DNA of 64,000 nucleotides from contig GL947595.1 in NCBI GenBank assembly GCA_000218745.1, positions 63,034 through 127,033 on the forward strand, read 5' to 3'. The notes under the pieces are model-generated. The model made no database searches. It saw only the letters and a program-made list of their open reading frames with translations, and was not told where the DNA came from. How positions within the stretch are numbered: the stretch's first letter is position 1; each line of letters opens with the position of its first letter. This DNA comes from Prochlorococcus marinus bv. HNLC2. Lineage in GTDB: Bacteria > Cyanobacteriota > Cyanobacteriia > PCC-6307 > Cyanobiaceae. Positions 20,939 through 23,842 of this stretch are shown one piece after another. The position numbers and the translations under genes are program-made.

Positions 20939-21515
20939 AAAAGAAACCCTAGTTTGACCATATTTTCTTTTATCAATTATTTTCCATACATCGCTATCTT
21001 CAATAAAATTATTTTTTGCATGCTCGTAAATTACTATTGAGCTTTTCTTTATAAAATCTGCTGTAAATATTAAATTTAATAATGATTTATCTAAAAATTC
21101 TTTGTAGGGAGGGTCTAAATAAATAAAATCGAATTTCTCTTTTTCGAAATTTATAATTTTTGAGGAGGAGAGATTTTTTTTTGGTTTGCCTTATCCAAGT
21201 AAAAACATCCTGGGAAATAATTTCAATTTTTATATCTTTCTCTTCAGGTTTAATCATTGATAATAAATTTTTTTTGCAAATCATCGCGATTTCTCTATTT
21301 TTTTCAATAGCAATTATTTTTTTTGCACCATGATTTATAGCTTCACATGATATTGAACCAGAACCACTATATAAATCTAACCAAAAAGAGTTTACGACTT
21401 CTCTACCTAAGATATTAAAAATTGCTTCTCTAACCATTAAGGTTGTCGGCCTAGTAAGGTTTGTTTTAGGGCTATAAATCTTTTGCCCTCCAATAAGTTT
21501 TAAGTGAGTCTTCAT
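20924..21515 (-). CDS. rsmD: 16S rRNA (guanine-N2) methyltransferase RsmD, one frameshift
   Basis: About 196 aa once repaired. The N-terminal block ([27 protein letters not shown]) and the SAM-binding [21 protein letters not shown] are typical of RsmD, which methylates G966 of 16S rRNA. The frame breaks in a nine-T run at 21174-21182. Dropping one base (or adding two) gives [15 protein letters not shown], the catalytic DPPY motif, and a clean tail to a TAA at 20924. Without repair the enzyme would lack DPPY, so I take the break as an error in the sequence. It follows hisH by 10 bases. Confidence 0.92.
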
Positions 21516-22152: not shown

Positions 22153-22476
22153 TTAAAGATGTTTAGATAAAGTGCTTGAAAGGGTTCCTTTGGGTACTGC
22201 ACCTACAACAGTGTCAACTTTTTGACCACCTTTGAATATCATTAGTGTTGGAATACTTCTAATGCCATACTGACTAGCAACATTGGGGTTTTCATCAGTA
22301 TTAAGCTTAAAAACTTTGATTTTGCCTTCAAAATCTTTAGAGATTTCTTCAACTATTGGGGCAACCATCCTACATGGTCCGCACCAAGGAGCCCAAAAAT
22401 CTACTAAAACAGGCAAATCGCTTTGCAAAACTTCTTTATCAAATGAAGAATCAGTGACGGCAGGAGCTGATGACAT
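22153..22476 (-). CDS. trxA: Thioredoxin (TrxA, m type)
   Basis: A 107-aa dithiol oxidoreductase. The active site is WCGPC (Cys32 and Cys35) in the typical [13 protein letters not shown] context, with the cis-proline loop [10 protein letters not shown]. It carries reducing power from ferredoxin-thioredoxin reductase or NTR to target enzymes in the cytosol. The small RNA Yfr1 lies in the spacer just upstream, on the same strand, followed by trxA then hisH. Confidence 0.97.
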
Positions 22477-22568: not shown

Positions 22569-22591
22569 AAAAAAAGCCCGATAAATCGGGC
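22569..22591 (-). terminator. Intrinsic terminator of Yfr1
   Basis: A perfect 6-bp GC-rich stem (GCCCGA/TCGGGC) with a 4-base loop is followed by seven T on the minus strand. It forms the 3' end of Yfr1 and would also stop transcripts reading through from guaB3. Confidence 0.9.
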
Positions 22592-22625
22592 GATTTGTGT
22601 GTGAGGAGTATGGGGTTTCCCCCAT
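22569..22625 (-). ncRNA. yfr1: Yfr1 small regulatory RNA
   Basis: Read on the minus strand, this short RNA has the three known Yfr1 parts in order: a 5' hairpin (TGGGG-GAAA-CCCCA, 22624-22611), the single-stranded core ACTCCTCACAC (22609-22599), and a 3' terminator hairpin GCCCGA-TTTA-TCGGGC (22591-22576) with seven U. The position between guaB and trxA is where Yfr1 was described in marine cyanobacteria. Yfr1 is known to pair through its CU-rich core with mRNAs, including porin-like targets, and to be needed for stress growth in some cyanobacteria. The ends are inferred from structure and from the -10 box. Confidence 0.93.
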
Positions 22626-22631
22626 TTGCTA

Positions 22632-22637
22632 ATAATA
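22632..22637 (-). promoter_or_regulatory. -10 element of the Yfr1 promoter
   Basis: On the minus strand this is TATTAT, placed 6-7 bases before the expected 5' end of Yfr1 at 22624-22625. The spacing is right for a sigma-70 type promoter; a clear -35 is not seen. Confidence 0.55.
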
Positions 22638-22678: not shown

Positions 22679-23842
22679 CTATTTGCCCATTCCAAGTTGT
22701 TGAGCTTTTTGATAAACTTTACCCTCAGTTAGTAGTGCTGGAGCAATTACAATTTCTACTTTTTGCATCTCTTTGATAGTTTTAGCTCCTAACGTGCTCA
22801 TTGATGTTCTTATTGCTCCAAGAAGATTATGAGTCCCATCATCTAGTAAAGCAGGACCTTTTAATATTCTCTCTAATGAACCAGTTGAGCCTACTTCAAT
22901 CCTAGTTCCTCTTGGTAATACTTGACTTGGAGTTGCCATTCCCCAGTGAAAACCTCGTCCTGGTGCACTTGATGCTCTTGCAATAGGAGAACCTATCATT
23001 ACAGCATCAGCTCCACAGGCTATGCATTTGCAAATATCTCCACCTGTAACAATTCCACCATCAGCGATTATTGGAATATATTTCCCACTTTGCTTATAGA
23101 AATCATCTCTAGCTGCACTGCAATCAGAAATAGCAGTGGCTTGAGGAATTCCTATCCCTAATACACCTCTTGATGTACAGGCTGCTCCTGGCCCAATACC
23201 GACCATTAAACCTTCAACTCCAGCCTCCATTAAAAGTTTTGCAACGTCATATGTTACACAATTCCCTGCTACTACTGGCAAATTTAAGGTATTGCATAAT
23301 TCATTAATATTTAATGTCTCTTGTCCATTAACACCTAAATGTTTAGTAGAAACAACAGTTCCTTGTAAAAAAAATAGATTTGGATCAGCTTCTAATATGG
23401 CTTCTTTATATTTAATTGCAGCTTGAGGGGTTCCACTAATTGCGGCAATCCCTCCAGAGTCTTTAATTTCTTTGATTCTTTTGAAAATAAGATCCTCTTT
23501 AATTGGTTCACGGTAAATCTTTTGCATCAGGGGTACAAATTCATCTTTGCCTACAGCTGATATTTGTTCAAGTACTTTTTCCGGCTCTTCATACCTCATT
23601 TGAATGCCTTCCATATTTAATACTCCTAATGAACCCAGTTTTGAAAGCTCAATTGCTGTTTTGACATCAACAACACTATCCATAGCACTAGCGATTATGG
23701 GAATATCTCTTTCTATATTGCCTATTTTCCAAGCAGGATTTGTTAATTCATAATCAAGTGTTCTTTCTCCTGGGACTAGAGCAATTTCATCAATTCCATA
23801 AGCTCTTCTTACTTTTTTGTTAATGCCAATGTTAATATTCAC
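22679..23842 (-). CDS. guaB: GuaB3-family IMP dehydrogenase-related protein
   Basis: A 387-aa TIM-barrel enzyme of the IMP dehydrogenase / GMP reductase superfamily. It lacks the CBS insert of classical IMPDH, which is typical of the cyanobacterial GuaB3 group. The phosphate-binding and catalytic loop GIGPGAACTSRG holds the presumed catalytic Cys222, and IIADGGIVTGGDICKC and EVGSTGSLE are conserved. Annotation in these genomes is usually guaB, but the reaction of the GuaB3 group is less certain than that of true IMPDH. It is followed on the same strand by Yfr1 and trxA. Confidence 0.88.
   Translation of the reverse strand: MNINIGINKKVRRAYGIDEIALVPGERTLDYELTNPAWKIGNIERDIPIIASAMDSVVDVKTAIELSKLGSLGVLNMEGIQMRYEEPEKVLEQISAVGKDEFVPLMQKIYREPIKEDLIFKRIKEIKDSGGIAAISGTPQAAIKYKEAILEADPNLFFLQGTVVSTKHLGVNGQETLNINELCNTLNLPVVAGNCVTYDVAKLLMEAGVEGLMVGIGPGAACTSRGVLGIGIPQATAISDCSAARDDFYKQSGKYIPIIADGGIVTGGDICKCIACGADAVMIGSPIARASSAPGRGFHWGMATPSQVLPRGTRIEVGSTGSLERILKGPALLDDGTHNLLGAIRTSMSTLGAKTIKEMQKVEIVIAPALLTEGKVYQKAQQLGMGK

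Follow-up and report, generated by a model that had tools for sequence, protein, structure and literature searches.

Does the short spacer between guaB3 and trxA in the 64,000-nucleotide stretch of DNA analysed here (the window) hold a small RNA gene of its own and, if so, how far does what has been described for that RNA in MED4 extend to this genome? The initial annotation had placed Yfr1 at 22569–22637 on account of a GAAA-capped 5' hairpin, an unpaired core, a GCCCGA/TCGGGC terminator and a TATTAT -10 box at the right distance, and every one of these elements can be located on the minus strand. The identification is borne out by a covariance-model search, in which RF01116 (Yfr1) matches 22625..22573 on the minus strand over its full length (model positions 1–59 of 59) at 55.0 bits, above the curated gathering cut-off of 38, with an E-value of 3.8e-8 that refers to 64 kb, both strands and 4227 Rfam families. 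The proposed interval does contain promoter box, RNA and T-run, but the RNA alone occupies 22573–22625. The features are as follows.

22679..23842, minus strand: guaB3, the upstream neighbour; ORF with a TIGR01304 match of 490.8 bits (cut-off 342.1)
22637..22632, minus strand: -10 box TATTAT, with a 6-nt gap to the putative +1 A at 22625
22573..22625, minus strand: Yfr1 small RNA gene, 53 nt, ends placed by comparison with MED4; RF01116 match
22625..22610, minus strand: 5' hairpin ATGGGG-GAAA-CCCCAT, 6 pairs and a GAAA loop
22609..22599, minus strand: core ACTCCTCACAC, as read in the sequence
22599..22609, minus strand: the core again, ACUCCUCACAC, the putative target-binding element, unpaired in the predicted folds
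22598..22592, minus strand: linker ACAAATC, one base shorter than in MED4
22591..22576, minus strand: 3' hairpin GCCCGA-TTTA-TCGGGC, the terminator stem
22575..22569, minus strand: T-run, the 3' end of the terminator
22569..22591, minus strand: intrinsic terminator, stem plus T-run, from a terminator scan
22153..22476, minus strand: trxA (thioredoxin), the downstream neighbour; ORF with a TIGR01068 match of 140 bits (cut-off 96.8)

The two TIGRFAM matches confirm the neighbours that had been named, and guaB3, yfr1 and trxA lie on one strand in that order, with yfr1 53 nt downstream of guaB3 and 96 nt upstream of trxA. The same order on one strand has been published for eight Prochlorococcus strains (PMC2190773), and the guaB–trxA placement is usual, not universal. 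The genome of the window has one copy of Yfr1. Even with the Rfam threshold relaxed to E 0.1, only Yfr1 and one tRNA were returned for the window, and Yfr10 (RF02362) had no match at this locus in either scan.

The 53-nt RNA is predicted to fold into two hairpins with the core unpaired between them (-20.9 kcal/mol), a fold with a z-score of -5.05 that none of 200 shuffled sequences equalled; for a 54-nt version the z-score is -4.35 and one shuffle in 200 did as well. If its ends are those of MED4, the RNA is one nucleotide below the 54–69 nt range given in print (PMC2190773). The 3' hairpin with its U-tail forms an intrinsic terminator, and the terminator scan picked up this stem (two sites, one listing per strand, against 0.2 expected). 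Scanning for two-box sigma-70 promoters gave none at this place (1.5 expected by chance), and no -35 box was seen upstream of the -10 box; the promoter call therefore relies solely on the -10 box and on how well it is conserved.

Searches of a genus and a family sample, run with stricter filters under which weak matches can be lost, matched Yfr1 in 162 of 200 genomes of the genus (66 of the 67 good ones) and in 248 of 300 genomes of the family (181 of 197 good ones). Published positions for yfr1 are complement 1000744..1000797 in MED4 and 1220973..1221029 on the plus strand in MIT 9313 (PMC1242208); the search returned exactly 1000744–1000797 minus in genome G152 and 1220973–1221029 plus in G071, a recovery that serves as a check on the method and from which, since the places agree exactly, we infer that G152 is MED4 and G071 is MIT 9313. 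An alignment was built from 51 loci, comprising 30 from the genus search, 20 from the lower ranks of its list and that of the window. All 51 keep the GCCCG/CGGGC stem and 50 an unaltered core (in L215 a G replaces the first A); the T-run has at least four residues in 49 loci and three in the other two. A TATNAT box stands near the start in 51 of 51, and in 48 the box nearest the start ends at -6. Mean column identity is 0.998 in the core, 0.98 in the 5' hairpin, 0.94 at -17..-7 and 0.69 at -59..-31. The pairs of the 5' hairpin are largely kept, and one two-sided change (L210) together with six G-U pairs speak for the helix; L218 breaks three pairs in the fixed register because its hairpin is shifted. 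Three other genomes of the genus (L205, L207, L208) carry the identical 53 nt, so the linker C that is missing relative to MED4 is not a private sequencing error. Within 1500 nt downstream of guaB3 the core occurs in 70 of 80 named loci. The ten loci where it was not found there include L116–L118, which are sponge-associated or close relatives, and L184, from Prochlorococcus sp. AG-363-M21; the other six have no thioredoxin match in the stretch after guaB3. As a bare pattern the core is a poor detector, with 22 matches in 12 genomes and matches of the reversed control in 8 of the 12.

Might there be no small RNA gene of its own here, the element serving only to terminate guaB3 or as part of the trxA leader? 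Its position close to both genes on their own strand, and the intrinsic terminator in which it ends, would fit such a role, but the core, the 5' hairpin and the -10 box at its fixed distance are far better conserved than the flank. Moreover, separate starts have been mapped in MED4 for yfr1 and, about 100 bp downstream, for trxA, and a Northern signal of 54 nt accompanies the mapped yfr1 start (PMC1242208). We consider this explanation very improbable. On the sequence, fold, synteny, conservation and single copy observed in this genome, the locus is with high probability yfr1 in a genome of Prochlorococcus type; its transcription, targets and Yfr2 partner here are argued by analogy with MED4. 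Its own -10 promoter and terminator would delimit a stable transcript some 53 nt long, whose two hairpins would keep the core ACUCCUCACAC unpaired; translation would fall where the core pairs with GUGUGAGGA-like sequences on ribosome-binding sites or close to them, and Yfr2 RNAs would bind the same core and titrate it. That protein-based calling misses such a gene, as had been pointed out, is fair, but an Rfam scan detects it at once and there is thus no discovery in it: this is an ordinary, already known RNA in its usual place, not a new one, and the value of the result is modest, namely a clean annotation (22573–22625, minus strand) of one more copy.

Yfr1 is missing from part of the sample. 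Of 20 genomes lacking a match, eight gave one at E 1 or better in a repeat search with a laxer threshold, and none exceeded the cut-off. Eleven of the 20 have a strong GuaB3 match (65–73% identity), and the exact core is absent downstream of guaB3 in ten of these and present in one (G025); in G078 the stretch read after guaB3 was only 91 nt and the sole core of the genome lies elsewhere. Two genera, g11 and g39, we take to be the SS120 and MIT 9211 groups. Loss of Yfr1 from the SS120 and MIT 9211 groups has been published (PMC2190773). In G025, the sole genome of its genus in the sample, the core is intact 82 nt after guaB3 (L115, G025:C1:1079251), without the Yfr1 hairpins (17.9 bits) and enclosed by a GCACGTCA/TGACGTGC stem; the locus is, judging by its sequence, a decayed or rebuilt Yfr1.

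Porins and ppa are the named Yfr1 targets in MED4. Yfr1 is reported to bind ppa through its core, and a reporter carrying the PMM1121 leader is repressed by Yfr1 in E. coli, an effect that Yfr2 relieves (PMC6778093); in Nostoc, Yfr1 is reported to control cell-wall genes (PMC6974561). A duplex scan of the 11 ORFs of a MED4 stretch ranked the starts of two paralogous porin-like genes first and second (-17.3 and -15.1 kcal/mol). By pair and place their products are presumably PMM1119 and PMM1121; they match no Pfam family, and the NCBIfam family por_somb scores 34.2 and 61.5, under its cut-off of 100. Upstream of MED4 ppa the core pairs at -17.8 kcal/mol, with none of 200 shuffles as good. The ppa counterpart of the window's genome has no core-complementary site: it reaches -2.9 within -80..+40, a value that 91% of shuffles attain as well, and only -4.2 over a wide stretch. 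The second pyrophosphatase of this genome has none either, its best value of -8.1 being attained by 25.5% of shuffles. For argJ the value is -11.4 in MED4 (attained by 4.5% of shuffles) against -4.3 here (69.5%) at the readable start, which is unsure because the gene is split over frames. This argJ lies in three pieces at G000:C1:1037794–1038929, owing to frameshifts or assembly errors. In the window itself, an ORF at 21087–21515, presumably the methyltransferase RsmD, seems shortened at its 3' end, possibly by another frameshift. The sole porin relative found in this genome (40% identity over residues 57–376) has a start that reads N; with Pfam OprB this genome yields a single weak match that stays below the cut-off (19.7 against 22.9 bits), and G152 yields one of 25.9 bits. 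Duplex ranking of gene starts found no strong Yfr1 site among the 59 ORFs of the window (best -11.0) or among 34 ORFs of two further 20-kb stretches (best -11.7), which were selected from where the porins lie in MED4 and do not contain the sole porin relative. Since ppa, the second pyrophosphatase and, at its readable start, argJ are without a site here and the porin start is unreadable, the mechanism proposed for this genome is borrowed from MED4. The comparison shows that even perfect conservation of the core does not imply that a relative shares the MED4 targets, and target sites are no defining feature of the Yfr1 family.

The absent ppa site, the linker shorter by one base and the loss of Yfr1 in some lineages would also fit a yfr1 copy undergoing decay or silenced in this genome, with the known MED4 target sites being lost. 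Such a state is hard to reconcile with a fold, core, -10 box and terminator that are all intact and with the identical 53 nt in three other genomes, and we give it very little credence. A chance resemblance to Yfr1, in favour of which nothing was found, is refuted by the E-value of 3.8e-8, the guaB3/trxA synteny and the near-identity to the verified MED4 RNA.

If Yfr1 is retained while a known target site is gone, what holds the core fixed? The Yfr1-less genus of sponge symbionts offers a place to study the role of the core by comparison. In this genus (g9, with loci L102–L104 and L116, which includes Candidatus Synechococcus spongiarum SP3) none of ten genomes, seven of them good, has Yfr1, and we found nothing in print on Yfr1 or small RNAs of Synechococcus spongiarum. 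The guaB3–trxA spacer measures only 50–52 nt in the three symbionts examined (G008, G063, G091), and these three carry the core at two other shared loci. Locus A (L087 1470–1560 on the plus strand; L080 and L091 on the minus strand) is a nearly invariant stretch in which TGCATAAT and the core of Yfr1 occur along with a terminator (GCTCCCA/TGGGAGC plus T-run). It has no Rfam match and as a whole folds no better than shuffles (z -0.61 and -0.60); conservation and the terminator are what speak for a candidate RNA there. Locus B (L079 on the minus strand; L088 and L089 near 1450–1520), also without an Rfam match, conserves the core and an upstream complementary TTGAGGAGT or TTAAGGAGT. One of the core-bearing loci has a -10-like box and a terminator, and core counts by themselves equal the reversed control in these symbionts. 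The core may be held fixed by something other than mRNA sites, mainly a constant partner (a Yfr2-type RNA or a protein), with mRNA targets turning over. This suggestion, which we make tentatively and think rather unlikely, draws on the intact core and fold in a genome that lacks the MED4 ppa site, and on the persistence of the core at other loci of the Yfr1-less symbionts.

Three known RNAs invite comparison with the Yfr1 of this genome. Yfr10 (RF02362) shares the 11-nt core with Yfr1 but differs in structure and place; in the copies that were folded, a single hairpin carries the core at its foot and in its loop. The window's genome has a Yfr10 match weakly above the cut-off (46.7 bits against 43; L083 1493–1578, G000:C1 near 329366), beside which, unlike in MED4, Rfam finds no Cyano-1/Yfr2. 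Alignment with MED4 Yfr2 likewise showed none downstream of this Yfr10. The Yfr2 family (Cyano-1, RF01701) is the published partner of Yfr1 and complementary to its core, and differs from Yfr1 in bearing the opposite motif and in being multi-copy; the RF01701 match overlaps the published MED4 yfr2, and the duplex of Yfr2 with the Yfr1 core, computed with MED4 sequences, amounts to -16.0 kcal/mol. The closest counterpart is the Yfr1 of MED4 itself (RF01116; PMC1242208, PMC2190773). The MED4 ppa site was not seen in the window's genome and the linker has one C fewer than the sequence printed in PMC2190773, but neighbours, order, strand, core, hairpins, loop and terminator are alike, and 53 of 54 bases agree.
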